Of a stretch of 42,717 nucleotides of DNA, positions 13,865 through 35,203 are shown one piece after another. The notes under the pieces were generated by a model that was given only the letters and a program-made list of their open reading frames with translations, was not told the DNA's origin and did not search any database. The first letter of the stretch is position 1; the number at the start of each line of letters is the position of its first letter. Origin of the DNA: a virus. The position numbers and the translations under genes are program-made. The stretch lies in IMG/VR virus record IMGVR_UViG_3300035695_000229, positions 1-42,717 of that record; one strand, 5' to 3'.

Positions 13865-14052
13865 GCCCGCCGCTTCCCCTCTTCCTCAAGGACGATTTGA
13901 ACGCCCTTCGAAAGCGCCGTGAGACGCTTTTGAAGCGTGTTGAGCACATGCCGAAACACTCGCCCGGCCGCTACGAGCTGCTCGGCCAGTTGAAAGCCGT
14001 GACGGCGGAAGCGATGAAGCTGGAAAACCGGCTGAATGGGAGATCCCATTGA
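13861..14052 (+). CDS. Hypothetical protein, 63 aa, upstream of Mor
   Basis: I start at ATG 13861, which overlaps the upstream stop; codons upstream shadow the previous gene. It is a short, basic, probably coiled-coil protein (DDLNALRKRRETLLKRVEHMPKHSPGRYELLGQLKAVTAEAMKLENRL). It ends in a TTGA overlap with the Mor-like gene, so the two are translated together. Confidence 0.65.
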   Translation: MSPPLPLFLKDDLNALRKRRETLLKRVEHMPKHSPGRYELLGQLKAVTAEAMKLENRLNGRSH

Positions 14053-14423
14053 GCGCTGACCTGACCGACGAACTGATGCTGCTGCTCGGCGATGACGGCT
14101 TCTTCACGCTCACCGAAGCCTATGGCGGCACACGGCTTTACGTGCCGGGCGATATCGGCCGATCGGGCCTCCCGGAGACAATTGGCGCGGAGAACGCTGC
14201 CCGTCTTTCCAATTCGTTTCCGGGCGGTTATATACGTATTCCGCTGGCCCGCTGGTTTCGGGCCGGGCGCTATCGGCAAAGCGGCATGAGCAACCGGGAT
14301 ATCGCTCGCAAGCTCGGCTTGACCGAGAGCAGCATTGACGACATGTTCCGCAAGCTCAAAAGGCTGGAACCCGGCCGGCATCTTCCCCAAAAAGACCCCA
14401 GGCAAATCGACCTCTTCGACTAG
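14049..14423 (+). CDS. mor: Mor/C-family transcription activator
   Basis: This 124-aa protein starts at TTG 14049 (TTGA overlap). It follows the Mor/C fold: a dimerisation region (TLTEAYGGTRLYVPGDI), a middle strand (IRIPLARWFRAGRYRQSG), then a helix-turn-helix, MSNRDIARKLGLTESSIDDMFRKLKRL (about residues 83-107). In Mu, Mor activates the middle promoter and C the late promoters, both through dyads with a short central spacer. It is the last gene of the early operon, and no second C-like gene is visible in the window, so it may drive late transcription directly. The repeated CCGCC-N6-GGCGG dyads are candidate targets, the first lying directly after its stop codon. Confidence 0.85.
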   Translation: MSADLTDELMLLLGDDGFFTLTEAYGGTRLYVPGDIGRSGLPETIGAENAARLSNSFPGGYIRIPLARWFRAGRYRQSGMSNRDIARKLGLTESSIDDMFRKLKRLEPGRHLPQKDPRQIDLFD

Positions 14424-14424
14424 A

Positions 14425-14445
14425 CCGCCCGCCTAGCCGGGCATG
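14425..14445 (+). promoter_or_regulatory. Late-module dyad 1, before lysozyme
   Basis: CCGCC (14425-14429), six bases, GCCGG (14436-14440), then GCATG. This matches the two other copies except for one base in the right arm. A -10-like CATAAC lies at 14468-14473, and the lysozyme ATG is 102 nt from the dyad start. The spacing of symmetric half sites by 6 bp resembles Mu C sites (half sites separated by N6). Confidence 0.6.
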
Positions 14446-14526
14446 GCTTCCTGTCCGCCTTGACGGGCATAACTCTCGCCAGACGTGCCGCTTACGAGCG
14501 ACGCTTTCCTGTTTCGCGAGGGTTTC

Positions 14527-15384
14527 ATGGACAGCCTCACTGCCGCAATTGACGCCAAGCTTCTCACCGCCATCGGCGGGCCGGTACCGTCCGCCAAGCT
14601 GGCGGCTCGTGACACCAATGTAACCGCCCTGGCGGCGCGGCTGCCTGCCATGATGGAGCGATTTCAGATCAACACCAAACTGCGCATCGAGCATTTCTTG
14701 GCGCAGATCGCCCATGAGTGTGACGGATTTTGCACCCGCACCGAATATGCTTCGGGCCGCGAATATGAAGGCCGCACCGATCTCGGCAATATCCGCCCCG
14801 GCGACGGCCCCCTGTTCAAAGGCCGCGACCCGCTGCAACTGACCGGCCGGGAAAATTATCGGAAATTCACGATCTGGATGCACGGAATCGACCCCGATGC
14901 GCCTGATTTCGAGGCGACCCCGGAAGAGGTTATCAGCGACAAATGGTTCGGCTGGGCGTCGATCTGGTACTGGCATGTGCACAGCATCAATGGCGCTGCC
15001 GATCGGGACAGCGTGATCGACGTGACCAGGATCATCAATGGCGGCAAGAATGGACTTGTCGACCGGGAAACAAAGCTCGCCACAGCCAAGCGCCTGGTGG
15101 ACGCCAAGGCGGCCTTCACCCCGATTGCGGCAGCCGCTATTTCGGCCGATCAGAACGGCTTTGCCGTGCTCCGGCGCGGCATGAATGACGGCAATTGCGC
15201 CTATCCGGTCACCATCGAGCAGCTGCAGCGCGCACTCTCGAAAGCCGGCTATCCGGTGACGATTGATGGCGATTTCGGACCCGGTACCGAAACCGCGGTC
15301 AAGGCTTTTCAGAAAGCACACGGATTGACCGTTGACGGCATTGTCGGCCGGAAGACCAACGACGCGATCGCGGCGGGGGCGTAA
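14527..15384 (+). CDS. lys: Endolysin: GH19-type lysozyme/chitinase plus peptidoglycan-binding domain
   Basis: This degrades the cell wall at lysis. The catalytic domain (about residues 1-200) contains [12 protein letters not shown] with the likely catalytic Glu64, [15 protein letters not shown] and [18 protein letters not shown], the pattern of phage GH19-like lysozymes. Residues about 222-283 form a PG_binding_1 domain ([47 protein letters not shown]). There is no signal peptide, so it depends on the holin that follows. I start at ATG 14527, with GAGGG 5 nt upstream; the longer frame from 14485 lacks such a site. It is the first gene of the late region. Confidence 0.92.
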
Positions 15385-15650
15385 TGGAAAAGCCGACCTA
15401 CAAGACCTCCAAAGCGGCAATCTGGCTTTCCTCGGCTGCTGCCTGGGTTGTCATCCTGATGCTGGCGGCCGGCGCTGCCTGGCAGGGGCAGGCGACCGCG
15501 TTCGGCACGATCGCTCTACCGTCCATGGTCACAATCATTCTTGGGCTGCTCGGCATCCACAGGGGATTCGGAAGCCTCGATATGCATCTGCAGACGCGCC
15601 ACAAGCTTGTGCCCCCGGCCTCGGCTGACCAGCCGGAGCCGCAATCATGA
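15384..15650 (+). CDS. Holin-like membrane protein, 88 aa
   Basis: There are two hydrophobic segments (about residues 11-31, AIWLSSAAAWVVILMLAAGAA, and 38-58, FGTIALPSMVTIILGLLGIH) followed by a polar tail. This fits a class II-type holin that releases the endolysin. The start overlaps the last base of the lysozyme stop (TAATG). Position between lysozyme and Rz supports the assignment. Confidence 0.75.
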   Translation: MEKPTYKTSKAAIWLSSAAAWVVILMLAAGAAWQGQATAFGTIALPSMVTIILGLLGIHRGFGSLDMHLQTRHKLVPPASADQPEPQS

Positions 15651-16012
15651 TGTCAGGCCTGACCAAATATCTGATTGGCGGCGTGGTGATCCTGGGCTTG
15701 TTCCTGGCGATCGCCGCGCTTGCGAAATCGGCCCTCACCGAAATCCATACCATGGTGACCGAGGCCGCCCAGCAGGCCCGCGATGAGCGCGACGCCCACT
15801 GGCGCGCCGAGATCGAGGCGGCCAATGCAAGGACCGCCAAAGCCGAGGCCGATCAGGCCATCCACGCCATGAAGGTCGACCAAACCGCCGCAGACGAAAT
15901 TGCCGCTGCCGATCGGCGCGCCACCGAACTGGAGAAGGACAATGCATCACTTCCGGATACTGGCCGCTGCGGCCTTAGCCGTGAGCGCGTGCAGCTGCTC
16001 AACAAAGAGTGA
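15647..16012 (+). CDS. Rz-like inner-membrane spanin
   Basis: A single N-terminal membrane anchor (about residues 8-27, IGGVVILGLFLAIAALAKSA) is followed by a long charged helix or coiled coil (EIHTMVTEAAQQARDERDAHWRAEIEAANARTAKAEADQAI). This is the layout of i-spanins that fuse inner and outer membranes at the end of lysis. The Rz1-like gene begins inside its 3' end in another frame. Confidence 0.8.
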   Translation: MMSGLTKYLIGGVVILGLFLAIAALAKSALTEIHTMVTEAAQQARDERDAHWRAEIEAANARTAKAEADQAIHAMKVDQTAADEIAAADRRATELEKDNASLPDTGRCGLSRERVQLLNKE

Positions 16013-16217
16013 GCCGCCGCCTGTCATCAAGACCGAGTTCATCCGGCCGGCGGTACCGGCAACGGCAAAGGTGCCATGCGTGGTGAGGCCGGCGCAGCTC
16101 CCCGATCGCGATCTGACGGAGAGGGAAACCAGTGATTTTCTGGCCGGAGCCAGGGCCGAAGTCAGGATTTGTGATGTGCGCCGCCGGGCGGCGGTCTCGG
16201 CGATCGAGGGGAATTGA
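15942..16217 (+). CDS. Rz1-like outer-membrane spanin lipoprotein
   Basis: I start at ATG 15942, which places the start inside the Rz-like gene in a different frame, as in lambda. The product has a lipoprotein signal (MHHFRILAAAALAVSAC) with lipobox VSAC and Cys17 as the acylated residue. It is followed by a Pro-rich segment (EPPPVIKTEFIRPAVPATAK) typical of o-spanins. At 91 aa it is longer than lambda Rz1. The codons upstream of 15942 are shadow. Confidence 0.8.
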   Translation: MHHFRILAAAALAVSACSCSTKSEPPPVIKTEFIRPAVPATAKVPCVVRPAQLPDRDLTERETSDFLAGARAEVRICDVRRRAAVSAIEGN

Positions 16218-16219
16218 GC

Positions 16220-16441
16220 GTGAACAGTTCGAATGCGGCATTCGACCAAGCAGAACAACTGGCCGAGGCTGAGCGCGAGGCCGGCATCGTCTCGGCAAGA
16301 GCTGCTCTTTCCGGAGGCGGCTTTACCCATTGCGTCAACTGCGGCGTGGCAATTCCGCTTTCCCGCCGCAAGGCCCTGCCAAGCGCCAAGCGGTGCTTTG
16401 AGTGCCAGCAAGCTTACGAACTCGATCAGGTGATGATGTAA
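16220..16441 (+). CDS. DksA/TraR-type zinc-finger protein
   Basis: This is a small protein with an N-terminal helix (DQAEQLAEAEREAGIVSARAAL) and a C4 zinc finger, CVNCGVAIPLSRRKALPSAKRCFECQ, the signature of the phage TraR/DksA family. These proteins bind the RNA polymerase secondary channel and alter promoter choice. I favour GTG 16220, with GAGGGG 8 nt upstream, over TTG 16214, where that site would be only 2 nt away. It may help redirect transcription late in infection. Confidence 0.88.
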   Translation: MNSSNAAFDQAEQLAEAEREAGIVSARAALSGGGFTHCVNCGVAIPLSRRKALPSAKRCFECQQAYELDQVMM

Positions 16442-16827
16442 TGGAGACGCACCAATTGTTGAATATGGGACCGCTTGAAGGCTGGATCGGGATCGTTCTG
16501 GGGGCGATCGCCATCCTCGGCCACGCCAAGGGGTTCTTCTCGTCCGGTGAAAAGAAGCTCGCCGAGGATCTCAAGAAGACGGGCGACGACATTGAGGATG
16601 TCGATGACGCAATTGTCGGCATGCAGAAAAAGCTGACCGAACATGATCGGCGCATTCAATTTGTTGAAGGCGAAATGAAACATCTGCCCGACAAGGACGG
16701 GCTGCACAAACAGCAGCTCGAAATCACCGAAATGCGCGGCGATATCGGCGTCATTAAAAAGTCGATCGAGACGACGGAACGTACGGCGCGGCGTGTCGAA
16801 GAATACCTGCTGAAGCGAGGGGACTGA
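16441..16827 (+). CDS. DUF2730-like protein (Mu gp25)
   Basis: I start at ATG 16441, which overlaps the upstream TAA by one base. There is an N-terminal membrane segment (about residues 11-29, LEGWIGIVLGAIAILGHAKG). A long coiled coil follows (KLAEDLKKTGDDIEDVDDAIVGMQKKLTEHDRRIQFVEGEMKHL...). The size, topology and location before the terminase genes match the Mu gp25/DUF2730 family, whose role is unknown. Confidence 0.8.
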   Translation: METHQLLNMGPLEGWIGIVLGAIAILGHAKGFFSSGEKKLAEDLKKTGDDIEDVDDAIVGMQKKLTEHDRRIQFVEGEMKHLPDKDGLHKQQLEITEMRGDIGVIKKSIETTERTARRVEEYLLKRGD

Positions 16828-16828
16828 A

Positions 16829-17134
16829 ATGAAGGAAGGTTATGCTGCCTGGATCGACGAAAACATCCGGCTGATTATCCTGAAAGCGCTTGGCGACGAA
16901 GATGACGCCACACTGAATGTCTTTATCCTGGGCAAGGTGATCGAGAGTTTTGGCCACAAGAAGACGCCGGAATATATCCGCAACCAGCTGCTCTGGCTGG
17001 AAAAACAGGCGGGTGCGGTGCGCACCACGGTGCTGGGCACCGAGATGATGGCGACATTGACCAAGGCCGGCCGCTGGCATGTCGAGCGCCGCCATCTGCT
17101 GTCCGGCATCCAAAACCCTTCAGATCTGGATTGA
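16829..17134 (+). CDS. Winged-helix protein, Mu gp26-like
   Basis: This 101-aa protein has the pattern of a small winged helix: DENIRLIILKALGDE...NVFILGKVIESFGHKKTPEYIRNQLLWLEKQAGAV, then LTKAGRWHVERRHLLSGIQNPS at the end. This recalls the phage family found beside the small terminase in Mu-like phages (Mu gp26). It probably binds DNA, perhaps in packaging control. It is separated from gp25 by one base. Confidence 0.8.
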   Translation: MKEGYAAWIDENIRLIILKALGDEDDATLNVFILGKVIESFGHKKTPEYIRNQLLWLEKQAGAVRTTVLGTEMMATLTKAGRWHVERRHLLSGIQNPSDLD

Positions 17135-17141
17135 GGTGATC

Positions 17142-17738
17142 ATGGGCAAGCATCAGCGCCCCCGCCTGTCGTCGATCGAGCAGCTGCCGGATGAGTGCGG
17201 CGGCGTCATCGCCTGGGCGGCGCAGGAGCTAGCCAAGCGCGATGCCTCGCTGACCGATATCTATGGCGAATTCCGGCGAAAGCTCATTGCACTGCAGGGC
17301 GAACTTGGCCTTGGCTTCGATATCCCGTCATTCTCCGCTTTCGGCCGCCACTCCATTCGCGAAGGCAATCTGCGTGGGCGGACGGCGCGCGCCCTGCTGC
17401 TCTCCAAATCGCTCAACGAGAATGTCGACGGCAAGGATGCCGACGAACTGACCAAGGCCGCGACACTGACACTCAAAACCTTGATCTTCGAAATGGTGGA
17501 AGGTGCCGGGGAGGCAGGGTTTGAACCCAAGGAAGCCATGGCGATGGCCAGCGCCATGCGCCAGTTGCAACAGGCTGAGAACCTTTCGACCGCGCGGCGG
17601 CTGAAGCTCGATGAGGAATTTGCCGCCAAGGCTGAAAAAGTCATCGACCAGCTCGGTAAGGAGAAGGGCATGTCAACCGAGACGATCGCCCAGCTGCGCC
17701 ATCAGTTCCTCGGCGTTCGGAAAAAGGAAACATCGTGA
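17142..17738 (+). CDS. Small terminase subunit-like protein (DUF3486, Mu gp27)
   Basis: I start at ATG 17142 (GAGGTGA 3-9 nt upstream); the earlier codons lie in the previous gene. The 198-aa product shows the DUF3486 pattern: RPRLSSIEQLPDECGGVIAWAAQELAKRDASLTDIYGEFRRKLIAL..., then a helical C-terminus. In Mu-like phages it is the probable small terminase that recognises pac. It lies directly before the large terminase (GTGA overlap). Confidence 0.87.
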   Translation: MGKHQRPRLSSIEQLPDECGGVIAWAAQELAKRDASLTDIYGEFRRKLIALQGELGLGFDIPSFSAFGRHSIREGNLRGRTARALLLSKSLNENVDGKDADELTKAATLTLKTLIFEMVEGAGEAGFEPKEAMAMASAMRQLQQAENLSTARRLKLDEEFAAKAEKVIDQLGKEKGMSTETIAQLRHQFLGVRKKETS

Positions 17739-19363
17739 GCGAGGCGGAACCAATCCCCAGGGAGCCGGACAGGCTACCACCGGAGTTTTCGCGCGGCGGC
17801 GATATCCCCGACGATCTCGACCCGCTGGCCGAAGGCGTGTTGATGCGCCATCAGGCCGAATGGCTGGAGGATCAATCGGATCTAAAAATCTGCGCCAAGG
17901 GACGGCGGACCGGCATCACGTTTGCCGAAGCGCTCGACGACACGCTGATCGCGGCCGCCAAGCGCTCGGCAGGCGGACAGAACGTCTTCTATATCGGCGA
18001 CACCAAGGACAAGGGCCGCGAGTTCATCGGCTACGTAAAACACTTCGCCTACACGGTCGCCAAGGAAATCGCCGAGATCGAGGATTCGCTGTTCATCGAC
18101 GAACGCGCCGATGGCACAACGGCTTTCATTTCAGGCTACCGGATTTCGTTTGCCTCGGGCTTCCGCGTCGAGGCGCTATCGTCCAGGCCGGAAAACATTC
18201 GCGGCCTGCAGGGCACAGTGGTGATCGACGAAGCGGCGTTCCACAAGAGCGTCCGCGACGTGCTCGATGCGGTCAACGCGCTGCTCATCTGGGGCGGCAA
18301 GATCAGGGTGATCTCCTCGCATAACGGCATCCTCAATCCGTTCAACGAACTGATAAGGGAAGCCGAGGCCGGCAAGGTGCCGTTCTCAATTCATACCATT
18401 CCATTCAAGCTGGCGATCGACAACGGCTTGTTCAAGCGCGTCTGCTTGACGACGGGAAAGACCTGGTCGCCGGCAACTGAGGCAGACTGGGAAGCCAAGA
18501 TCCGAGCCTCCTATGGATCCCGCACCGCCAAAATGAAACAGGAGCTGGATGCGATTCCCGCCGAGACCGAGGGCGCAGCACTCACCCGCGTCATCATCGA
18601 GAGCTGCATGTCGGCTGACATCCCCGTGGTGCGCTGGGATCGCGATGACGATTTCAAGAATCTCACTGATGAAGAGCGCCGCCGGCAGGCTTTGCAATTC
18701 TGCGAACGCGATCTGAAGCCGCTTTTAAAGCGCCTTAATCCGGCCCGCGAACATGCTTTTGGCGAAGACTTCGCCCGCAAGGGCGACAAGACCGCGATCA
18801 TCCCGCTGGAGATCGGCACCGATCTGGTACGCCGCGCCAGCTTTGTCCTGGAACTGAAGAACATAACCTTCGACGAACAGCGCGACATTCTGTTCTACAT
18901 CGTTGACCGGCTTCCACGGCTGGTCGGAGGGGCGCTCGATGCCACGGGCAACGGCTCCTATCTCGCCGAAAAGGCCGCGCAGAAATATGGCGAATGCATC
19001 GTCGAGGTGATGATGACCGCCACGTGGTACAAGACCAATATGCCGGCCTATATCGAGGCGTTTGGCGACAAGAGCATTTTGTTGCCGAAAGACGCCGATG
19101 TGCTCGCCGATCACCAGGCGCTTGCTTATGTCGGCGGCATCATCAAGGTGCCGGACAATCATTCGACCAAGGGCGTCGACGGCTATGATCGCCACGGCGA
19201 TACCGCGCCGGCCGGGGCGCTCGCCTGGTTTGCCAGCCATCAGGATTTCATCGCCTACGCCTATGAAACCGACCGCAAGCCGGCGGTGGGCAGCGCACAA
19301 CATACCTATCCCGAAGACGAGGACAGCAGGACACTCGATGTCCGCCTGAGAGGATCATTGTAA
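17735..19363 (+). CDS. Large terminase subunit (Mu gp28)
   Basis: This packaging motor ATPase and nuclease starts at GTG 17735. The ATPase domain has a Walker A-like ICAKGRRTGIT (about residues 52-62) and Walker B TVVIDEAAF (161-169, Asp165/Glu166), followed by a VISSHNG motif III. The RNase H-like nuclease domain has its first Asp in HAFGEDFARKGDKTAI and a later DATGNGSYLAE with the second Asp. Mu-type headful packaging takes host DNA with the prophage ends. The length of 542 aa is normal. The stop TAA overlaps the portal ATG. Confidence 0.95.
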   Translation: MSEAEPIPREPDRLPPEFSRGGDIPDDLDPLAEGVLMRHQAEWLEDQSDLKICAKGRRTGITFAEALDDTLIAAAKRSAGGQNVFYIGDTKDKGREFIGYVKHFAYTVAKEIAEIEDSLFIDERADGTTAFISGYRISFASGFRVEALSSRPENIRGLQGTVVIDEAAFHKSVRDVLDAVNALLIWGGKIRVISSHNGILNPFNELIREAEAGKVPFSIHTIPFKLAIDNGLFKRVCLTTGKTWSPATEADWEAKIRASYGSRTAKMKQELDAIPAETEGAALTRVIIESCMSADIPVVRWDRDDDFKNLTDEERRRQALQFCERDLKPLLKRLNPAREHAFGEDFARKGDKTAIIPLEIGTDLVRRASFVLELKNITFDEQRDILFYIVDRLPRLVGGALDATGNGSYLAEKAAQKYGECIVEVMMTATWYKTNMPAYIEAFGDKSILLPKDADVLADHQALAYVGGIIKVPDNHSTKGVDGYDRHGDTAPAGALAWFASHQDFIAYAYETDRKPAVGSAQHTYPEDEDSRTLDVRLRGSL

Positions 19364-20943
19364 TGACAACTTTCCGCGATTGGTTGGGCAGGGTCATTGC
19401 CGGCAGGGATCTGTTCAGCGATATCGCCGGGGCACGCGTCGGCGGCATGCGGAGCTGGTGGTCTGACCATCCGGCAGATGGGCTGACGCCGAGAAAGCTT
19501 GCGGCCATTCACCTTGCCGCCGCCCAGGGCAGCCCGCTTGCCTATCTCGAACTCGCTGAGGATATCGAAGAACGTGATTTGCATTATGCCGGCATCATGG
19601 CAACCCGCAAACGTTCCGTCGCGCAATTGCCGATCACGGTGGTTGCTGCTTCCGATGACGCAGACCACAAGAAACATGCGGAGCTGGTTCAGTCCTGGCT
19701 TGATGAAGGCGTTCTGCAGGCAGCCTTATTCGACATGCTGGATGCGATCGGCAAAGGCTTTTCAGTGCTCGAGACAGATTGGCAGACCAATGCCTGGGGC
19801 AACACGCTGCCGCGCGAACTGATCTACCGGACGCCGCGCTGGTTCACCTTCGACCTCACCGATGGCGAAACCGTGTTGCTCCGCGAGGGTGTGGCCAATG
19901 AGCCATTGGCGGCCCATAAATTTGTCGTCCACCGCCACAAATCCAAATCCGGCCTGACGATCCGTTCCGGCATTGCCCGGATGGCATCCTGGTCATGGAT
20001 GTTCAAATCGTTCACGGTCCGCGACTGGGCGATCTTTGCCCAGAATTTTGGCCAGCCGATCCGCGTCGGCAAATATGGACGCGGCGCGACCGAGGCCGAA
20101 AAGGATGTGTTGTGGCGGGCGGTCTCCGGCATTGCCGGCGATTGCGCAGCGATCATCCCGCGGGAAATGTTGATCGAGTTCCAGGAAGTGGCGAGCAAAG
20201 GATCATCCACAGATCTGTTCGAACGCCGCGCCGACTGGCTCGATCGTCAGATGTCCAAGGTGGTGCTTGGCCAGACTGCGACGACAGATGCGATTGCCGG
20301 CGGTCATGCTGTCGGCAAGACCCATCGTCTCGTCCAGGAAGATATTGAGCGCTCGGACGCCATGGCCGCCTCGGCGACCATCAACATCCAGCTTATTCCC
20401 AACATCGTTGCCTTCAATTTCGGACCGCAGGACCGTTATCCGAAGGTCCATATCGGCCGGCCGGACGAAGTGCCACTTTCGGAATTTTCCACGGCCTTCA
20501 ATGATCTCGGCCCGCTCGGCCTGACTGCCGGCATCTCCTACATCCGCAATCGCTTCGGCATCCCCGCGCCCGCAAAGGGCGAGGAGTTGGTGGGCGGCCG
20601 GGCGGCGATCGCAACGCCCGTCACGCCGCCTGTCATTCCAACAAAGCCAGCCAGGCAAACCACGCAGCATCTATTTGCGGCGAGGCATTCCGTCGCCCAG
20701 GACGCCTTGACCGAGAAGCTGCTCGCCCGGATCAGCGAGGAATCAGACGGCGCGATGTCCGGCCTGGTGGAGGACGTGCGCAAAGCCTTGATGGAGGCCA
20801 CTGATCTCAGGGACGCCGCAGCCCGGTTGGCGCAGCTCGATCTCAGCGCTGATCAGCTGACCGAGGCGATGGCGCGGGGCATGGCCCTGGCGCATCTGGC
20901 CGGGCAAGCCGCCCTCATCGACGACCTCAATAGCCGGTCATGA
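19363..20943 (+). CDS. Portal protein (DUF935, Mu gp29)
   Basis: This forms the ring at the head vertex through which DNA enters. The DUF935 pattern is clear: RKLAAIHLAAAQGSPLAYLELAEDIEERDLHYAGIMATRKRSVAQLPI, then GFSVLETDWQ, DWAIFAQNFGQPIRVGKYG and KVVLGQTATTDAIAGGHAVGKTHRLVQEDIERSDA. The 526-aa length fits. The gene is followed by a 130-bp gap that interrupts the otherwise overlapping late genes. Confidence 0.95.
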   Translation: MTTFRDWLGRVIAGRDLFSDIAGARVGGMRSWWSDHPADGLTPRKLAAIHLAAAQGSPLAYLELAEDIEERDLHYAGIMATRKRSVAQLPITVVAASDDADHKKHAELVQSWLDEGVLQAALFDMLDAIGKGFSVLETDWQTNAWGNTLPRELIYRTPRWFTFDLTDGETVLLREGVANEPLAAHKFVVHRHKSKSGLTIRSGIARMASWSWMFKSFTVRDWAIFAQNFGQPIRVGKYGRGATEAEKDVLWRAVSGIAGDCAAIIPREMLIEFQEVASKGSSTDLFERRADWLDRQMSKVVLGQTATTDAIAGGHAVGKTHRLVQEDIERSDAMAASATINIQLIPNIVAFNFGPQDRYPKVHIGRPDEVPLSEFSTAFNDLGPLGLTAGISYIRNRFGIPAPAKGEELVGGRAAIATPVTPPVIPTKPARQTTQHLFAARHSVAQDALTEKLLARISEESDGAMSGLVEDVRKALMEATDLRDAAARLAQLDLSADQLTEAMARGMALAHLAGQAALIDDLNSRS

Positions 20944-21073
20944 AAACGGGGCAAAGAATAGCCCCTTGGGCGCGTTCGTCAGGGTCGAATAGCCGGATGC
21001 CCGGCCCAAACCCTAAAAACGCGTCCAGGGGCTTCAAATGCACTTCAAATTTTGATCGAAGGGGCAATGGAGG
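20944..21073. other. Gap between portal and gp30 with hairpin and paired CTTCAAA iterons
   Basis: This is one of the longer gaps in the structural region and lies near the middle of the prophage. It contains a small hairpin (GGGGC 20948-20952, GCCCC 20961-20965) and two CTTCAAA copies 11 bp apart (21032-21038 and 21043-21049), the same phased motif as at both ends. In Mu a strong gyrase site is located near the centre of the genome; an analogous role here is a hypothesis. Confidence 0.55.
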
Positions 21074-22156
21074 ATGGTGACGACGGCAAGCGCGCTCGAT
21101 CTGCCCTTTACCGAGGCGATCGACTTCCTCAAGCAAAAGACCGCCACCCCGACCAAAAGCTGGCGTGATGTCTGGGATGCGGCGCATTCGAAAATGTTCA
21201 TGGTGGCTGGCGCCAACAAACAGGCGATCGTGGAAGACTTCCAGGCGGCAATCGTCAAGGCGATCGAGACCGGCACGACGCTGGCAGAGTTCCAGAAGGA
21301 TTTCGACAAAATCGTCAAGACCAATGGTTGGTCGTACAAGGGCGATCGCGGCTGGCGGACCAAGACGATCTTTGAAACCAACATGCGCACCGCCTATGCC
21401 GCCGGCCGCTATGCCCAGGCAACCGACCCGGATGTGCTCGCGGCCTTTCCCTACTGGCAATATAATCATTCCGGCGCGACCCATCCACGCGTCCAGCATC
21501 TGGCCTGGAACGGCACGGTGCTGGCGGCCGACGATCCGTTCTGGAATGAGGCCTACCCGCCCAATGGTTTCGGCTGCGGCTGCTTTGTCACCTCGGTGTC
21601 GCGCGGCGGCTTGAAACGCCAGGGCAAGGCTGGTCCGGATCGCTCGCCCAATCTCGACCAGGTCGGAACCGATCAGCCGCTCGGCATCGATCCATCCTTC
21701 GCCTATAACCCGGGCAAGGCGTGGTTGACGCAAACCGCGCCCGGGCCAAAGGTGGTGACCGCCAGTCAGGCAATGGTGGCGGCGTTTGCAAAATCATCCC
21801 TCCGGGGCAAATGGCCGGATGGCAGCTGGACGCCGGTGGGCGCGGTCGACAAAACCATGGCCGGGACGCTCGATGTCAAGGCAGCCACCGAAATCCGGCT
21901 GCCGGCGGAGACGATCCGCAGTCTGGGCGAGACGATCAGCCTGGAGACGCTCGCCAATCTGCCAAGCTGGTTGAGCAAGTCGGGCCGCATCAAGGTCGAC
22001 AGCCAAGGCAATATTGTCATTGTCGGCACGCTGGACGGCAAGACCTATTGTGCGACGATCCGGATCGAGCGGCAGAAAGACCGATCGTCGGTCACGGTCA
22101 CGGATCTGAAGCCAATCACCGCGCGGCAGGCGGCAGCGCTGAAGGACCTCCAATGA
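21074..22156 (+). CDS. Minor head/morphogenesis protein (SPP1 gp7-like; Mu gp30/F)
   Basis: The first 210 residues follow the phage head morphogenesis domain: LPFTEAIDFLKQKTATPTKSWRDVWDAAHSKMFMVAG..., FETNMRTAYAAGRYAQ and the conserved WQYNHSGATHPRVQHLAWNGTVLAADDPFWNEAYPPNGFGCGC. The protein is probably ejected or placed near the portal. The last 90 or so residues (LPAETIRSLGETISLETLANLPSWLSKSGRIKV... then GKTYCATIRIERQKDRSSVTVTDL) resemble the PBECR-type (barnase/EndoU/ColE5-like) domains found at the C-terminus of some phage head proteins. That second assignment is tentative. Confidence 0.88.
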   Translation: MVTTASALDLPFTEAIDFLKQKTATPTKSWRDVWDAAHSKMFMVAGANKQAIVEDFQAAIVKAIETGTTLAEFQKDFDKIVKTNGWSYKGDRGWRTKTIFETNMRTAYAAGRYAQATDPDVLAAFPYWQYNHSGATHPRVQHLAWNGTVLAADDPFWNEAYPPNGFGCGCFVTSVSRGGLKRQGKAGPDRSPNLDQVGTDQPLGIDPSFAYNPGKAWLTQTAPGPKVVTASQAMVAAFAKSSLRGKWPDGSWTPVGAVDKTMAGTLDVKAATEIRLPAETIRSLGETISLETLANLPSWLSKSGRIKVDSQGNIVIVGTLDGKTYCATIRIERQKDRSSVTVTDLKPITARQAAALKDLQ

Positions 22157-22659
22157 GCGGCATTTCGATATCGGTGACGATCGACGACAAGGCCGTCCGG
22201 CGGGCCTTTCTGCAGTTGGAAAAGCTGATGGCCAACACCACGCCCGTGATGCGGGCGATCGGCGTTGGCCTCGTATCATCTACCCATATGCGCTTTGTCA
22301 CGCAAACCGATCCCGAAGGACAGGCTTGGCACGCACTGAATCCTGAATATGCCGCCGGCAAGCGCAATAGCCGGATTTTGACCGAGAGCGGCAGGTTGAG
22401 GGATAGCATCAACGCCCAGGCCGGCAACGACCAGGTGACGGTTGGAACCAATGTGATCTACGCGGCAATCCACCAGCTCGGCGGCACCATCAAGCCGAAA
22501 AACGCCAGCCATCTCTACTTCCGGATCGGCGGCCGTCTGGTCATGGCCAACAGTGTGACCTTGCCCGCCCGCCCATTCCTCGGTATATCGAAAGACGACG
22601 AGACGGAAATTGCCGAAATCGTCTTCGGCTTCCTGGAACGCTATTCGAACCGCCCCTGA
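22153..22659 (+). CDS. Virion morphogenesis protein (Mu gpG family)
   Basis: I start at ATG 22153 (ATGA overlap with gp30). The 168-aa product has the family pattern ISVTIDDKAVRRAFLQLEKLMANTTPVMRAIGVGLVSSTHMRF, FVTQTDPEGQAWHALNPEYAAGKRNSRILTESGRLRDSI and TNVIYAAIHQLGGTI. The HQLGGTI stretch is strongly typical. Mu gpG acts in head-tail assembly. Confidence 0.92.
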   Translation: MSGISISVTIDDKAVRRAFLQLEKLMANTTPVMRAIGVGLVSSTHMRFVTQTDPEGQAWHALNPEYAAGKRNSRILTESGRLRDSINAQAGNDQVTVGTNVIYAAIHQLGGTIKPKNASHLYFRIGGRLVMANSVTLPARPFLGISKDDETEIAEIVFGFLERYSNRP

Positions 22660-22675
22660 TCTCCGCACCGCATTG

Positions 22676-22696
22676 CCGCCCATCTAGGCGGGCATG
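22676..22696 (+). promoter_or_regulatory. Late-module dyad 2, before protease I
   Basis: CCGCC (22676-22680), CATCTA, GGCGG (22687-22691), then GCATGAAC. The symmetry is perfect over 5 bp per arm. The start codon of the protease lies 55 nt from the dyad start and is preceded by TTTGCGGGCC rather than a clear ribosome-binding site. The same layout, with 54 nt, occurs at 35150. Confidence 0.65.
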
Positions 22697-22730
22697 AACA
22701 GCCCGGCCGCCGCATGGCAGTTTGCGGGCC

Positions 22731-23780
22731 ATGAAAACAGCGCTTCACACCTACTTCAAGGCTCTTCACGCCGCCGATGGCAGCGTGCCCGACTGGCTGG
22801 AGCTTATTCCGGCTGGTACGTTTTCGGGTGTCGACGGTCGTGGACCTTACATCAACGACAAGCCTGAAGATGTTGTGGCAATTTTTAATGCCGAAGGCCG
22901 CAAACTGCCGATCGATGAAAACCATTCGATCGACTTTGTCGGCGGTGCCGGCCTGCCATCGCCAGCGCGCGGCTGGATCACGGCGCTAGAGGTGCGGCAA
23001 GGCAGCATCTGGGGCAAGGTCGAATGGACCGATGCCGGCAAGGCGCTGATGACCGATCAGGCCTATGGCTTTCTCTCCCCGGTTTTTTTGCACGGCAAAC
23101 AGAAGCCAATGCGTGTCGCCAAGCTCTTGCGGGTGGCGCTGACCAACAATCCAAACCTTGATCAACTGAAATCGCTTCACAGCCAACAGGAGACTGACAT
23201 GCTTGAAGAGCTGCGGAAGGCCCTCGGCCTTCCCGAGACTGCCGATGAGGCTGCCGTCATGGCCGCCGTCATGGCAGCGCATACCGCCAACCAGGCACAT
23301 GTTGCGCTGATGGCGCGGATCGCCACGGTCGCCAATGTCGCGGCGGGCACCACAGGCGATGCCCTGGTAGCAGCCCTTCAGACGGCTGTCACCAAGCCGA
23401 CCGGCGAGCAGACCACGGAGATCGCAAACCTGCAGGGCCAGTTGCTGGCCATGCAGAACCAGCTGACCAGCTACGTCCAGGTTACCTCGAAGGACAAGGC
23501 GGTATCGGTGATCGACAAGGCCGTCCAGGACGGCAAGATCATCCCGGCGCTGCGCGATCATTACGTCGCGCGCCACATGAAGGATTCGAGCGAGGTCGAG
23601 AAGGAAATCTCGCTCCTGCCGTCGCTGAATGCCGGCGGCCTGGGCAAGCGCCAGCCGCCGCAGTCCGGCGACACGGTCGCACCTGATGCGGACGAGCTGA
23701 AGGTTGCGGCCCTGATGGGCATCGACGCTACGGCATTCGCGGCAACCCATAAGACGATTTACGGCAAGGCGGTGCTCTGA
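22731..23780 (+). CDS. I: Head maturation protease with fused scaffold (Mu gpI)
   Basis: The N-terminal part matches the Mu protease I family (WLELIPAGTFSGVDGRGPYIND, then LPIDENHSIDFVGGAGLPSPARGWITALEVRQGSIWGKVEWTDAGKALM and YGFLSPVFLH). The C-terminal half is the scaffold (QGQLLAMQNQLTSYVQV..., a predicted coiled coil). I place the start at ATG 22731; an upstream TTG in frame (22722) is possible. There is no strong ribosome-binding site before it. As in Mu, an internal start probably produces a separate scaffold. Confidence 0.93.
   Translation: MKTALHTYFKALHAADGSVPDWLELIPAGTFSGVDGRGPYINDKPEDVVAIFNAEGRKLPIDENHSIDFVGGAGLPSPARGWITALEVRQGSIWGKVEWTDAGKALMTDQAYGFLSPVFLHGKQKPMRVAKLLRVALTNNPNLDQLKSLHSQQETDMLEELRKALGLPETADEAAVMAAVMAAHTANQAHVALMARIATVANVAAGTTGDALVAALQTAVTKPTGEQTTEIANLQGQLLAMQNQLTSYVQVTSKDKAVSVIDKAVQDGKIIPALRDHYVARHMKDSSEVEKEISLLPSLNAGGLGKRQPPQSGDTVAPDADELKVAALMGIDATAFAATHKTIYGKAVL
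23199..23780 (+). CDS. Z: Internal start: scaffold protein (Mu Z-like), nested in gene I
   Basis: ATG 23199 is in frame with the protease gene and is preceded by AGGAG (23188-23192) with a 6-nt spacer, the best ribosome-binding site in the gene. It starts MLEELRKALGLPETADEAAV and runs to the shared stop, giving 193 aa. In Mu, gene Z is the 3' part of gene I and supplies the scaffold in excess over the protease; the arrangement here is the same. Confidence 0.8.
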   Translation: MLEELRKALGLPETADEAAVMAAVMAAHTANQAHVALMARIATVANVAAGTTGDALVAALQTAVTKPTGEQTTEIANLQGQLLAMQNQLTSYVQVTSKDKAVSVIDKAVQDGKIIPALRDHYVARHMKDSSEVEKEISLLPSLNAGGLGKRQPPQSGDTVAPDADELKVAALMGIDATAFAATHKTIYGKAVL

Positions 23781-24166
23781 TGACGGCGACCAATGATCTC
23801 TTTTATCTTGAAAAACCCGGCCAGTCCTACGGCTTCGGCGTGCTGGCCGGAATCAAGCTCTACGGCCGCGCCGTGGTCGGCATCACCTCGACCAAGCTCG
23901 CCGTGCCGGCGGGCCATGTCTCGGCGGTCAAGCTGATCGGCCTCGCGGAAGAGCGCACCGACAACACCCTTGGCGCAGATGGCGATGTCAAGGTGCGCGC
24001 CAAGAAGGGCGTCTATCTCATCCCGCTTTCCGCCACCGTCGCCAATATCGGTGCGGCCGTCTACGCGACCGCCGACGATACATTCACGCTTTCCACGACC
24101 GGCAGCCCGCTGCAGATCGGCGTCATCGACGCCGTCGACGCGGACGGCACCTGGCTGAAAATCTGA
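23780..24166 (+). CDS. Head decoration/cement-like protein, 128 aa
   Basis: The start overlaps the stop of gene I by one base. The product is beta-rich and ends with VKVRAKKGVYLIPLSATVANIGAAVYATADDTFTLSTTGSPLQIGVIDAVDADGTWLKI, a pattern seen in DUF2190-type capsid cement proteins. Its place between scaffold and major capsid supports a role on the capsid surface. The assignment is by pattern and position. Confidence 0.7.
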   Translation: MTATNDLFYLEKPGQSYGFGVLAGIKLYGRAVVGITSTKLAVPAGHVSAVKLIGLAEERTDNTLGADGDVKVRAKKGVYLIPLSATVANIGAAVYATADDTFTLSTTGSPLQIGVIDAVDADGTWLKI

Positions 24167-24176
24167 GGGACCTCTG

Positions 24177-25070
24177 ATGGATATCAATGTCGCCACCCTG
24201 CGAGGCATTTACACCTCGCTTTCGACCGCCTTCAATGTGCGGTTTGCTTCCGTCAAGCCACTCTATGGCATCATCGCCATGGACGTGCCCTCGACCACCT
24301 CGCAGAACGAATATCCGCGCCTCGACGATATGCCGGGCATCCGCGAATGGGTTGGCGAACGTCTCATTCACCGGCTCGGCGCGCAGACCTACACGATCCG
24401 CAACAAGTCGTTCGAAAAGACGATCGCCATCAAGCGTCCTCAGATCGAGGATGATCAGATCGGGATCTTTGGAAACATTGCCGGCCAGTTTGGCCAGGAC
24501 GCCGCAAGCTTCCCCGACAAGCTGGTTTGGCCGTTGCTCAACAATGGCGATACGACGATTTGCTATGACGGTCAGTATTTCTTCGACACGGACCATCCCG
24601 GTTATGACGCCAGTGGCCAGCTGACCTCTGTTGCCAATTTCGTGGCGGGTTCCGGTCCGGCCTGGTACCTGGTCGACGACACCCAAGTGGTCAAGCCGAT
24701 CGTCTATCAGAAGCGCAAGGATTTCAAACTCACTCCGCTGTTCGCCGAAACCGATCCGAACGTTTTCTATCGCGATGAATTTGTCTGGGGCACGGATGGC
24801 CGCTGCAATGCCGGTTACGGCCTATGGCAGCTCGCCTACAAATCCAAGGCGACGCTCAACGAAGCCAATTTCAACGCCGCCCGCGCGGCCATGCAGGCGC
24901 TTCGCAAGGCGGATGGCGACATTATCAATATCCGTCCGACCAAGATCCTGGTGCCGCCGGCGCTCGGGCCGACTGCCCGCAAGCTGCTCAATGCCGAACT
25001 TATCAATGGCGGTGAAAGCAACACCTTGGCCGGTATCGTCGAGGTGGTCGAGGTCGGCTACCTCAGCTGA
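24177..25070 (+). CDS. T: Major capsid protein (Mu gpT)
   Basis: This 297-aa protein has the Mu gpT pattern: INVATLRGIYTSLSTAFN, EYPRLDDMPGIREWVGERLIHRLGAQTYTIRNKSFEKTI, LVWPLLNNGDTTICYDGQYFFDTDHPGYDASG and RNKILVPPALGPTARKLLNAELI-like residues near the end. It forms the icosahedral shell with an HK97-type fold. A perfect terminator-like hairpin lies 17 nt after its stop codon. Confidence 0.95.
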   Translation: MDINVATLRGIYTSLSTAFNVRFASVKPLYGIIAMDVPSTTSQNEYPRLDDMPGIREWVGERLIHRLGAQTYTIRNKSFEKTIAIKRPQIEDDQIGIFGNIAGQFGQDAASFPDKLVWPLLNNGDTTICYDGQYFFDTDHPGYDASGQLTSVANFVAGSGPAWYLVDDTQVVKPIVYQKRKDFKLTPLFAETDPNVFYRDEFVWGTDGRCNAGYGLWQLAYKSKATLNEANFNAARAAMQALRKADGDIINIRPTKILVPPALGPTARKLLNAELINGGESNTLAGIVEVVEVGYLS

Positions 25071-25087
25071 TCGTACAAGCCATTTAT

Positions 25088-25114
25088 CCCGCCCGGTCAC
25101 CGGGCGGGGTTTTC
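25088..25114 (+). terminator. Rho-independent terminator after capsid gene T (copy 1)
   Basis: CCCGCCCGG (25088-25096), loop TCA, CCGGGCGGG (25100-25108), then GTTTTCC. The 9-bp GC stem and T-run fit an intrinsic terminator that would lower expression of tail genes relative to capsid. An identical hairpin lies at 25384-25404. Confidence 0.8.
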
Positions 25115-25165
25115 CAGAGCCGCCGCGTTTGACGGCTCCGGAAAGTCCCGAAGGAGAGAACCATG
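25088..25165 (+). repeat. 75-bp terminator-plus-leader direct repeat, copy 1
   Basis: The unit comprises the terminator, a second hairpin (GAGCCG...CGGCTC), GGAAAGTCCCG and the ribosome-binding site GAAGGAGAGAACC directly before ATG 25163. Copy 2 at 25384-25460 is identical apart from two or three bases in the loop of the second hairpin. Short similarity continues upstream (CATTT). Confidence 0.9.
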
Positions 25166-25369
25166 ACAAAGCATGTACGAGTCGAGAACGCCGATATGTC
25201 GAAATATAAGGTGATTGTTGAGGTCTGGGACAAGGGTTTTCCCGAGGGTGAGCCGGACAAGTTGGCTTTCACCGAAAAGCTCGATCACCCGACAGCAATG
25301 ACGTCCACTAACGTCTATCTCACTTCGACTCGCTACCTCATCGTCAAAGAAGCACCGGCTGGCGCTTAG
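25163..25369 (+). CDS. Moron-like small gene between duplicated leaders, 68 aa
   Basis: The ATG lies 7 nt after AAGGAGAGAA. The product (KHVRVENADMSKYKVIVEVWDKGFPEGEPDKLAFTEKLDHPTAMTSTNVYLTSTRYLIVKEAP) is a probable small beta protein of unknown family. Its DNA appears richer in A+T than the flanking capsid and gp35 genes. It is bounded on both sides by the same terminator-leader unit. Recombination between the repeats would remove it cleanly and leave one leader in front of gp35. Such independently bounded genes are known as morons. It may be a host-benefit or capsid accessory factor; no function can be read from the sequence. Confidence 0.7.
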   Translation: MTKHVRVENADMSKYKVIVEVWDKGFPEGEPDKLAFTEKLDHPTAMTSTNVYLTSTRYLIVKEAPAGA

Positions 25370-25383
25370 TTGCGCCTGCATTT

Positions 25384-25410
25384 CCCGCCCGGTCACCGGG
25401 CGGGGTTTTC
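25384..25410 (+). terminator. Rho-independent terminator (copy 2) after the moron-like gene
   Basis: CCCGCCCGG (25384-25392), TCA, CCGGGCGGG (25396-25404), then GTTTTCC, identical to copy 1. It lies 15 nt after the stop of the 68-aa gene. Confidence 0.8.
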
Positions 25411-25460
25411 CAGAGCCGCCGCGATGACGGCTCCGGAAAGTCCCGAAGGAGAGAACCATG
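25384..25460 (+). repeat. Terminator-plus-leader direct repeat, copy 2
   Basis: This copy differs from copy 1 only at the second hairpin loop (GCGATGACGG in place of GCGTTTGACGG) and carries the same ribosome-binding site before ATG 25458 of the gp35-like gene. Confidence 0.9.
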
Positions 25461-25826
25461 GCATCGAAAATACAGGTCATCTGCACCCGTCCCGGCATGC
25501 GCCGCGCCGGCATGACGCATGAAGCAAAGAAGGTCTATGAGGCGGGCGAGTTGACCAACGATCAACTTGAAACGCTGAAATCAGATCCCGCTTTCGTGGT
25601 GCAGGAGATCGACGACAGCGCCGTTGTCGTCAGGGATGACGACTTCGACAAGGCGATTGCAGACAAGGTCAACGAGGAACTTTCGGCCAGGGCGAAGGTG
25701 ATGCAGGCATCCTTCGACAAAGCGGTCGCCGACGCGGCGGCTGAAAAGGTCAAGGCAGCCGAAGACAAAGCGGCTGATCTCGAAAAGCAGCTCGCCGATC
25801 TCACGGCGGCCAGCGCCAAGAAATAA
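25458..25826 (+). CDS. Mu gp35-like protein
   Basis: The N-terminal half (IQVICTRPGMRRAGMTHEAKKVYEAGELTNDQLETLKSDPAFVVQEI) follows the HI1506/FluMu gp35 pattern of a small domain with RRAG and QL..L..DP motifs. The C-terminal half is a long Ala/Lys/Glu-rich helix (DKAVADAAAEKVKAAEDKAADLEKQLADL). The domain resembles those that bind capsid or head-completion parts. Position after capsid T matches Mu. The role is unknown. Confidence 0.85.
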   Translation: MASKIQVICTRPGMRRAGMTHEAKKVYEAGELTNDQLETLKSDPAFVVQEIDDSAVVVRDDDFDKAIADKVNEELSARAKVMQASFDKAVADAAAEKVKAAEDKAADLEKQLADLTAASAKK

Positions 25827-25850
25827 CAGCGAAGAAGCGCAAAAGTCCGC

Positions 25851-25878
25851 GACGGCCGGGCGATCCGGCCCGGCCGTC
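25851..25878. terminator. 10-bp stem-loop after gp35
   Basis: GACGGCCGGG (25851-25860) and CCCGGCCGTC (25869-25878) form a perfect stem with an 8-nt loop. No T-run follows, so it may be an RNA-stabilising hairpin or a Rho-linked site rather than an intrinsic terminator. Confidence 0.5.
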
Positions 25879-25900
25879 ATGACTTCCAGGGGATAGAACT

Positions 25901-26335
25901 TTGTACGCATCCGTCGCAGACATGACCGCCCGCTTTGGCGCGACCCAGATGATCCGGCTTTCCAACCAGGAAGACCGGACAGCTGACACCGTCGATGAGG
26001 ACAAGGTCAATCGGGCGCTGGCTGACGCGACATCGACCATCGACGATTATGTGCGCGGCCGCTATCTCGTGCCGATCGCCACCCCGCCGGACAGCATTGT
26101 CCGCGCTGCCTGTATTCTGGCCCGCTACGATCTCGCCCAGGGCGAGGCAACTGACCCCTCCGAGGAGATGTCGAAGGGCCGCAAGGAAATCATCACCTGG
26201 CTTGAGAACATCGCCAAGGAACTCATCAATCTCGCCATCCCGGTGGCCCTGCCATTGGGCCCGGCGGTCGGTTCAGGTCCACGCGTCTCCGATCGGTCGG
26301 CCATTTTTACCTCTGACAGTTTGCGGAGGATGTGA
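25901..26335 (+). CDS. Head completion/adaptor protein (DUF1320, Mu gp36)
   Basis: TTG 25901 is the start, with AGGGG (25888-25892) 8 nt upstream; the first residues (YASVADMTARFGATQMIRLSN) agree with the DUF1320 family. The pattern VNRALADATSTIDDYVRGRYLVPIATPPDSIVRAACILARYDLA is characteristic. These proteins sit below the portal and join the head to the tail. The length of 144 aa is typical. Confidence 0.92.
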   Translation: MYASVADMTARFGATQMIRLSNQEDRTADTVDEDKVNRALADATSTIDDYVRGRYLVPIATPPDSIVRAACILARYDLAQGEATDPSEEMSKGRKEIITWLENIAKELINLAIPVALPLGPAVGSGPRVSDRSAIFTSDSLRRM

Positions 26336-26910
26336 TGGATCTTTCCTCCGCCCCGATCCGCGTCATGGAACCGGCGATCAAAGCCCGGCTGCGGCTGGCG
26401 TTTCCGGAAAAAGATTTCACCATCGAGCGCATTCCTCAGACGCTGACCATCAAGGAATTCGAGCGGCTGTCGCGGCTATCGCCTTTCATCGGGCTCGCCT
26501 GGGCGGGTTTCAAGCCGGATGGCGCCAATGAGCGGATCACCAAGGGCGACATGCTGTGGCGGCTGGTGCTGGTTTACAAGGCTTCAAACGGCCTTGAAGC
26601 CCGCTTCAAGGGCGACAGATTGGGCCTTGGTCTTGATGCCATGGTCGATGTCAGCATTGTACTACTCAACGGCGCGGGCTTCCCCGGCATCGGCAAAAGC
26701 CAGGTGACGCTTGCCAATTCGGTGATCGCCGATGGCTGGTCGGACGATTCGATCGTGATCGCCCAGGTGGATTTTACCGTGTCATTCACGGCGACACCGG
26801 CGAATTTCAGCCTCAAGACCGCAGAAGATTTCCAGAAGCTCGGCATCACCTGGATCGTCGATCCGGAGGATGAAGCCGCGCCTGACGTCACCGACGAATT
26901 AGAACCTTGA
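26335..26910 (+). CDS. DUF1834 protein, tail terminator-like (Mu gp37)
   Basis: I start at ATG 26335; GTG 26332 is an alternative overlapping the upstream stop (GTGA). The pattern PIRVMEPAIKARLRLAFPEKDFTIERIP...VLVYKASNGLEARF...GLDAMVDVSIVLLNGAGFPGIGKSQV...FTVSFTATPANF matches Mu gp37. By position it is the tail-completion or terminator protein. Confidence 0.87.
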   Translation: MDLSSAPIRVMEPAIKARLRLAFPEKDFTIERIPQTLTIKEFERLSRLSPFIGLAWAGFKPDGANERITKGDMLWRLVLVYKASNGLEARFKGDRLGLGLDAMVDVSIVLLNGAGFPGIGKSQVTLANSVIADGWSDDSIVIAQVDFTVSFTATPANFSLKTAEDFQKLGITWIVDPEDEAAPDVTDELEP

Positions 26911-26921
26911 AAGGGCCAATG

Positions 26922-27191
26922 ATGGCAAACCGCATTCTCATTGCCGCGCCTGGACGAACCGTCCTTCAGGAGGATGGCAGATCGTGGCCGGCTGAAGGGA
27001 TGGAAGATCCCAACACGCTGTTCACCCGCCGGCGGATTGCCGATCTCGACCTGGTCGACGCGCCGGACGATGTGCCGGCCGATGTGACGATCGGCGAGGA
27101 AAAGCCAGCCAAGCCCAAGGGCAAGGCCGACAAAACCAACGACACTGAAACCGCCGGGGCTGACACGCCGGCCGAAACCACCGGAGAATAA
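26922..27191 (+). CDS. DUF2635 protein (Mu gp38)
   Basis: I choose ATG 26922, 6 nt after AAGGG (26911-26915), over TTG 26907 and ATG 26919. The first 50 residues (ILIAAPGRTVLQEDGRSWPAEGMEDPNTLFTRRRIADLDLVDAP) are the DUF2635 pattern. A disordered acidic Lys/Glu/Thr-rich tail follows, longer than in Mu. It lies directly before the sheath gene, as in Mu. Confidence 0.85.
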   Translation: MANRILIAAPGRTVLQEDGRSWPAEGMEDPNTLFTRRRIADLDLVDAPDDVPADVTIGEEKPAKPKGKADKTNDTETAGADTPAETTGE

Positions 27192-27194
27192 CCG

Positions 27195-28688: not shown

Positions 28689-28716
28689 TAGACCCGCAAC
28701 GAAAGGAAACCTCTAA

Positions 28717-29082
28717 ATGTCACAGGTTCTCGGCATCGTGGATATCGTCTGGAAAGGACGCAATATCCCCGTCGAAAAGGGCTCAAAATTCCGGGTTGGC
28801 GGAATCAAGAACAACGCGGTCACCTATGGCCGCAAGGTCGGCCGCGCCCAGGAATTCCAGGGGTCATCGGTGACAGCCGTCACCAATCTGGAAACCGGCA
28901 TGCGGCTGAGCAATCTGCTCGATCCCGGAGAGGGCGAATTGCAGGTGGTCTGCGACACCGGCCAGACCTTTGTCCTGAAGGATGCGTTCCTGATGGATGA
29001 CCGGCCGGAAGTGGCCGGCGGCGAAGGCGGCAAGATCGAACTGAAATGGGCCGGCGGCGTGCCCGAAGAAATCATCGGCTAG
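28717..29082 (+). CDS. M: Tail tube protein (Mu gpM)
   Basis: This 121-aa beta-rich protein has the gpM pattern (VLGIVDIVWKGRNIPVEKGSKFRVGGIKNNAVTYGRKVGRAQEFQGSSVTAVTNLETGM...). It forms the inner tube. The gene directly follows the sheath and precedes the tail chaperones, as in Mu. Confidence 0.93.
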   Translation: MSQVLGIVDIVWKGRNIPVEKGSKFRVGGIKNNAVTYGRKVGRAQEFQGSSVTAVTNLETGMRLSNLLDPGEGELQVVCDTGQTFVLKDAFLMDDRPEVAGGEGGKIELKWAGGVPEEIIG

Positions 29083-29093
29083 GAGATCATCGG

Positions 29094-29558
29094 ATGAAGA
29101 AGCAAGAACTGGTCGTCGATCTCGACGGCGATCTCCCCATTCTCGACGGTATCGTCGAGGAAGACGGCCCAATCGCTTCGGGGCCGGCAGTCGATGGCGA
29201 CATCGTCGATGAGGATCTCGACCCCGCCGATCGGCTGCCCAAGCACGCCAGGCGCAACAGCAATGGCTCGGTGACACTGCCTTTGCATTTCCCCCAGGAG
29301 ATCGTCTCCCGGAAGGATAACAAGATCCGCAAACAGATGTTCAGCGAGCTGGTGTTGAACCGTCTCAACGGGGCAGACCAGCGAGCGATCGCGGCGACTT
29401 CCGAAGATACGATGACCGTTGTCGCCTTGTCGCGGTCGACGCGGATCAATCTCGCCGTCATGAACGCGCTGTTCGACAAGCTCGACATGGCCGATCTGCA
29501 GGCAGCCGGCCAGGTGCTCAACCATTTTTTAGCGAGTGGCCCGAAGACTGGACGCTGA
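29094..29558 (+). CDS. Tail assembly chaperone, unshifted product (Mu gp41)
   Basis: I start at ATG 29094; codons before it are shadow. The 154-aa product has an acidic N-terminus (LVVDLDGDLPILDGIVEEDGP) and the phage tail assembly domain (VTLPLHFPQEIVSRKDNKIRKQMFSELVLNRLNGADQRAIAATSEDTMTVVALSRSTRINLAVMNALFDKLDMADL). It coats the tape measure during tube assembly. Near its 3' end the heptamer T TTT TTA lies in the correct phase for -1 slippage into the downstream frame. Confidence 0.9.
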   Translation: MKKQELVVDLDGDLPILDGIVEEDGPIASGPAVDGDIVDEDLDPADRLPKHARRNSNGSVTLPLHFPQEIVSRKDNKIRKQMFSELVLNRLNGADQRAIAATSEDTMTVVALSRSTRINLAVMNALFDKLDMADLQAAGQVLNHFLASGPKTGR

Positions 29559-29695: not shown

Positions 29696-29696
29696 C

Positions 29697-35170: not shown

Positions 35171-35203
35171 AACTGATCCGCGCGCGCGCGATAGCGTGCG
35201 GCC

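Follow-up and report, generated by a model that had tools for sequence, protein, structure and literature searches.

To our knowledge, late control by Mor/C-type activators is known in detail only from phage Mu, which encodes two such proteins, Mor and C, with exclusive specificities. C is the activator of the late promoters of lys, I, P and mom (PMC4461284). Mor acts as a dimer on a dyad centred at -43.5, at a promoter with no -35 (PMC4287176), and its element comprises two 5-bp inverted repeats within 16 bp (PMC4390567). A further point of comparison is RcapMu, a cultured phage of Rhodobacter capsulatus (L159 in our set), whose gene RcapMu27 is annotated as a late transcriptional activator. 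We found exact copies of the 22-bp CCCCCGGACCTGTGTCCGGGGG in RcapMu at 13946, after RcapMu27, and at 22367, before I, a repetition like that of the locus described here.

The window, the whole 42,717-nucleotide stretch analysed here, is a viral record containing a Mu-like prophage with near-identical dyads at 14425, 22676 and 35150. We judge it very likely that these are activator sites of late promoters driven by the phage's own Mor/C-type activator, a reading in which binding, activation, start points and late timing are all inferred from sequence. The prophage itself appears to be bounded by 11-bp tandem repeats, CTTCAAATAGG, which occur at both ends (1588–1630 and 42424–42471) and are probably transposase end-binding sites; if they are the ends, the phage spans about 1590–42470 and the ORF at 42484–42717 lies outside it. 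Left of the phage end, 1–1316 holds what reads as a recombinase-like fragment, and the overlapping ORFs 505–969 and 762–1316 resemble a frameshifted IS5-type transposase, both by reading only.

The motif CCGCC-N6-GGCGGGCATG occurs without mismatch at 22676 and 35150; at 14425 one arm carries a single mismatch. Scanning both strands of the whole window with the extended 23-mer GCCGCC-N6-GGCGGGCATGA at up to 3 mismatches returned exactly the three sites of the original prediction, all on the + strand. The same scan placed no copy in front of the dam-like (D12 methyltransferase) gene, again as predicted, and no other convincing dyad copy was found in the window. With GCCCGCCNNGGCGGGCATG, up to 3 mismatches gave 7 matches against 0.81 expected, and matches with 1–2 mismatches occurred only at the three sites. 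The bare CCGCC-N6-GGCGG is weak alone (103 matches against 74 expected at 2 mismatches), and this mild enrichment in a GC-rich genome is what can be said for the dyads being chance or a functionless dispersed repeat. We take them to be real because of their long shared sequence, including GGGCATG(A), their placement between a stop codon and the operon that follows, and their conservation in relatives. What looks like another dyad, at 14455, runs into the predicted -10 of the first promoter and is probably incidental.

While the sites stood, the register first proposed for them, CCGCC-N6-GGCGG, did not. Across 24 sites of the window's class, the best symmetry centre lies 2 bp to the right of the centre of that motif, and mean pairing is 0.83 for GCCCGCC-NN-GGCGGGC against 0.60 for CCGCC-N6-GGCGG. 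The conserved element is therefore the 16-mer GCCCGCC-NN-GGCGGGC, that is GCCCG-N6-CGGGC, in which the outer five bases of the arms are spaced by 6 bp. This resembles the Mor element of Mu Pm, likewise a 16-bp dyad with outer 5-bp repeats 6 bp apart. The half-sites differ from those of Mu C; the Mu com/mom region contains TTAT-N6-ATAA.

The candidate activator is encoded at 14049–14423 (+ strand; listed TTG start, 124 aa), and its ORF ends one base short of 14425, in agreement with the earlier observation that the stop codon lies 1 base before the first dyad. The protein matches phrog_836, "late transcriptional activator", over nearly its full length (residues 6–123; 3e-19). On Pfam Mor (PF08765) it scores 15.8 bits, below the 24.9 cut-off, whereas a 45% identical relative, L019, scores 31.7; L013, L019 and L036 all pass. 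A Mor fold as in 1RR7 would comprise an N-terminal dimerisation part and a C-terminal helix-turn-helix; besides such a helix-turn-helix at its C-terminus, the AlphaFold model (pLDDT 84.6) shows a helix and short strands. A Foldseek search with this model gave no significant structural match, the profile A2 search placed the Mor structure 1rr7 at rank 6 (E=0.034), and the hhalign comparison with Mu C was weak (probability 12%). Gene order satisfies the position expected of the family: gemA at 12294, the Mor-like gene at 14049 and endolysin at 14527 follow one another in a Mu-like genome, and the activator gene stands directly before the lysis gene in Mu and RcapMu too. The PHROG match and gene order favour membership in the Mor/C family, which the Pfam, profile and structure searches leave borderline. 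Unlike Mu, which has both Mor and C, this phage yielded one Mor-like protein. Elsewhere, prophages L087, L104 and L105 carry two tandem Mor-like genes about 0.8–1.1 kb apart, which may correspond to Mor and C.

Each site precedes an identified gene on the + strand. Site 1 (GCCCGCCTAGCCGGGC, 14427–14442), found at the same place in nine relative loci, is followed by a predicted -10, CATAAC, at 14468–14473. That assignment is an inference from its distance to the dyad, which differs by no more than 1 bp from the distance in the I promoters; TATTGT or TAGCTT occupies this position in relatives, and the lys promoter is expected to start near 14480. The endolysin gene (14527–15384; phrog_9506 endolysin, 8e-48) has its first ATG at 14527, with GAGGG upstream, and a GTG at 14485 is also a possible start. 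Site 2 (GCCCATCTAGGCGGGC, 22678–22693), also conserved in relatives, precedes a predicted -10, CAGTTT, at 22718–22723, which lies where relatives have CATATC or CAATTT and where the family logo places the element, and then gene I, the head maturation protease (22731–23780; PF10123, 2e-48). Site 3 (GCCCGTCCAGGCGGGC, 35152–35167) is followed by an alternating GC run at 35180–35190, in the spacer between dyad and -10, by a predicted -10, TAGCGT, at 35192–35197 (TAGTTT, TAGCTT or TAACGT in relatives), and by the baseplate wedge gene gp46 (35204–35665; PF07409, 2e-22). The GC run is conserved in 7/7 Rhizobium relatives (L041–L047) and also in L098 and L099, and it might make the DNA easier or harder to unwind, for which the unwinding that C induces at Mu Pmom is a comparison.

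The arrangement meets what Mu C would lead one to look for, namely one dyad at lys, at I and at a tail promoter of the same phage, with the activator gene directly upstream of lys. The original prediction had matched the three blocks to Mu lys, I and P; the first two hold, but the gene behind the third site is gp46, which lies two genes beyond the homologue of P (gp44), the gene that has the promoter in Mu; in other relatives the third site apparently precedes the tail sheath gene. No mom-type site exists in the window, and the P and mom promoters are a Mu feature that varies among relatives. A scan for consensus sigma-70 promoters found none in 14000–15000 and, in a wider scan, none at sites 1 and 2, as expected for activator-dependent promoters; a poor -35 and a dyad upstream of the start are likewise the pattern of Mu C.

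Promoter geometry is rigid across the family. Of 32 distinct phages, 28 keep 43–47 bp between the palindrome centre and the ATG of I that follows, with 24 of these ATGs in the 44 and 45 bins; in the window the distances are 45.5 bp at gene I and 44.5 bp at gp46, neither with a Shine-Dalgarno match. In a logo aligned on the ATG, the most marked of the other upstream signals are C (93%) at -1, A (64%) at -11 and T at positions -10, -8 and -7 (54% at each); Shine-Dalgarno matches at these ATGs are absent or minimal. Because a -10-like element and a C/A initiator would put +1 at the A of the ATG, with scant Shine-Dalgarno, we read the I mRNA as leaderless; in the window's group the same is predicted for gp46 mRNA, with the activator centred at about -44.5 and start points unmapped. 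At the window's own I promoter the A is at -12, not -11, so the start may fall one base before the ATG. We found no description of a leaderless I for Mu. At I and gp46 the centre of the 16-mer and the predicted start are 44.5–45.5 bp apart, consistent with a Mu-type dyad upstream of and over the -35; the centre is at -43.5 for Mu Mor against about -44.5 here. In RcapMu the distance is unlike these, about 61 bp from the dyad centre to the annotated I start.

This spacing bears on whether the dyads are instead intrinsic terminators, RNA hairpins ending operons that resemble one another through terminator duplication. Their GC-rich stems and their position just after stop codons would suit that reading, and a T-run does follow the palindrome in L007, L010, L079, L095, L134 and RcapMu. 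No T-tract, however, follows any window site (14443, 22694, 35168), and the dyads fold in an ordinary way (z -0.5 to -1.6), against -22.2 kcal/mol, z -4.2 and a GTTTT for a terminator-like hairpin at 25087 of this phage. A terminator scan of 14000–33000, which covers sites 1 and 2, listed neither. Many copies in other phages are perfect palindromes without a loop, and a terminator needs neither 44–45 bp spacing to an ATG, nor shared loop bases, nor covariation with a Mor-like protein. We therefore regard terminators as an improbable explanation of the dyads and keep to activator sites. T-runs follow 5/28 palindromes at the fixed spacing, besides those in RcapMu and L010, yet L007, L079, L095 and L134 keep the 43–47 bp spacing; some T-run copies in relatives may double as terminators. 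RcapMu differs from the window in this respect, with only two copies found and a T-run after each, and in its siphovirus-type tail genes. As a separate observation, 25087–25478 in the window is a tandem duplication with about 295 bp spacing, in which a terminator-like CCCGCCCGGTCACCGGGCGGGGTTTT and a conserved RBS/leader stand before two successive genes.

Close relatives were found with a terminase query; a viral-contig search with the Mor-like protein alone returned no related loci. In nine Rhizobium-type loci (L016–L021, L033–L035), whose terminases are 69–78% identical to the window's at the best segment, the same element follows the Mor-like gene and precedes I in 9/9, and each of the 7 relatives in which gp46 has a match (L041–L047) carries it ahead of that gene too. 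The gene after site 1 varies among these close relatives: window-type endolysin occurs only in L021 and L035, and L016–L020, L033 and L034 keep the activator site although the downstream lysis gene is not recognizably homologous. From these nine sequences, the site-1 promoter appears to outlast exchange of the cassette behind it.

We widened the comparison with an order-wide Mor-like profile search, which matched in 58 of 397 genomes. Fetched and viral sequences together gave 59 loci with a Mor-like gene and gene I at suitable distance on one strand, from which we retained 48 distinct prophages, almost all from Hyphomicrobiales. Similarity between the region after the Mor-like gene and the region before I averaged 16.2 within a phage and 8.5 for mismatched pairs (0/20,000 permutations), and a phage's own partner region ranked first of 48 in 24 cases. 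A shared palindrome exceeded the 95% background in 32 of the 48; the remaining 16 had no clear shared palindrome by the scoring used. Its sequence is usually phage-specific, with distant relatives carrying different palindromes at the same places, among them CTGACA/TGTCAG, GGTAACA/TGTTACC, CCGATCACGTGATCGG, CGGTGAACCGGTTCACCG, CCCAGGCCTGGG and CCGCGACGCGCGTCGC. A motif search in related prophages with their Mor homologues, one of the checks originally suggested for these sites, finds the sites kept in Rhizobium relatives and own palindromes in distant ones. In the Rhodovulum phage RS1, no long shared word links the post-activator and pre-I regions, and similar hairpins are visible by eye.

To seek a third copy, we extended 20 of the loci by 20 kb per phage. 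Twelve contained one, 19–24 kb into the locus and about 9.6–14.6 kb past the I site; L129 has three identical CGGTGAACCGGTTCACCG. Several phages showed no further palindrome copies in 40 kb, and a control with the reversed pattern returned 0 in the six phages to which it was applied. What follows the third copy varies: gp46-like genes in the window, L098 and L099, a gene that looks gp25/W-like on inspection by eye in L093, and one that looks like tail sheath, again by eye, in L091, L110 and L118. This recurrence of three-site sets, with differing palindromes at corresponding places in many phages, together with the permutation result, already refutes a chance or dispersed repeat.

Which protein binds is a separate matter, and even-symmetry palindromes suit many dimeric regulators, so that a phage repressor, a Ner-like protein or a host factor could be imagined in place of the Mor-like protein. 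Across the phages, site distance correlated with Mor-like protein distance (r=0.53), and the partial Mantel correlation remained 0.46 after controlling for I (0/5000); the reverse partial, site against I given Mor, was 0.19 (25/5000). I is the one other phage protein against which covariation was compared, which leaves some room for another regulator. A conserved host factor fits poorly with most phages having their own palindrome, the Mor-like gene adjoins site 1 in most loci, and in Mu this role at lys and I falls to C (PMC4461284). We give a different regulator only a small chance, and take the Mor-like protein as the likely binder.

Particular recognition helices accompany particular sites. 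TES-x-x-x-x-(M/L)F helices (TET in L016) pair with GCCCGCC-type sites in the window, L016, L019, L098 and L099; HER-(T/S)-x-(F/Y)-RARAR helices pair with CTGACA in L023, L036 and L108, with a similar case in L091; and HRQTVLR and SRLTVLR helices pair with GGTAACA in L079 and L095. The recognition helix explained the sites no better than the N-terminal domain (0.47 against 0.48; partials 0.25 and 0.27). The binder is therefore identified at the protein level only, and recognition by the helix specifically is not shown.

On these grounds we propose that a dimer of the 14049–14423 product would bind at each of the three 16-bp palindromes, whose centres would lie about 44.5 bp before the start points, and recruit or activate host sigma-70 RNA polymerase at promoters with a weak -10 and no usable -35. 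Transcripts from 14427 would cover lysis and early head genes, those from 22678 the head protease block, and those from 35152 the baseplate/tail block. At I and gp46, transcription would begin at the A of the ATG or 1–2 nt from it, giving leaderless mRNAs, and related prophages would run the same circuit on palindromes of their own, with activators that co-vary.

An activator-promoter set of new specificity, as the original prediction had it, is well supported by comparison, without binding or transcript data. The sites, their conservation, the private sequence per phage, the fixed spacing, the -10/initiator signature and the covariation with the Mor-like protein are computational observations. 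We count as new the specificity, the shift of the third promoter, the prediction of leaderless starts and a family-wide set of private activator-operator pairs; our literature search found no description of these features or of the sites. More broadly, alphaproteobacterial Mu-like phages probably share diversifying Mor/C-type activators that act on private palindromes at exactly two or three late promoters, whose geometry is rigid and one of which gives a leaderless mRNA for the head protease. Because each phage repeats its own operator at fixed places, operators become readable from sequence in dozens of relatives, and leaderless late mRNAs are predicted to within a base or two. RcapMu offers a laboratory test system, and the matched pairs offer small orthogonal activators for alphaproteobacteria. 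If the proposal is correct, private pairing would insulate co-resident prophages from one another, and dozens of natural protein-site pairs could yield a readable DNA recognition code for the Mor/C-type family.
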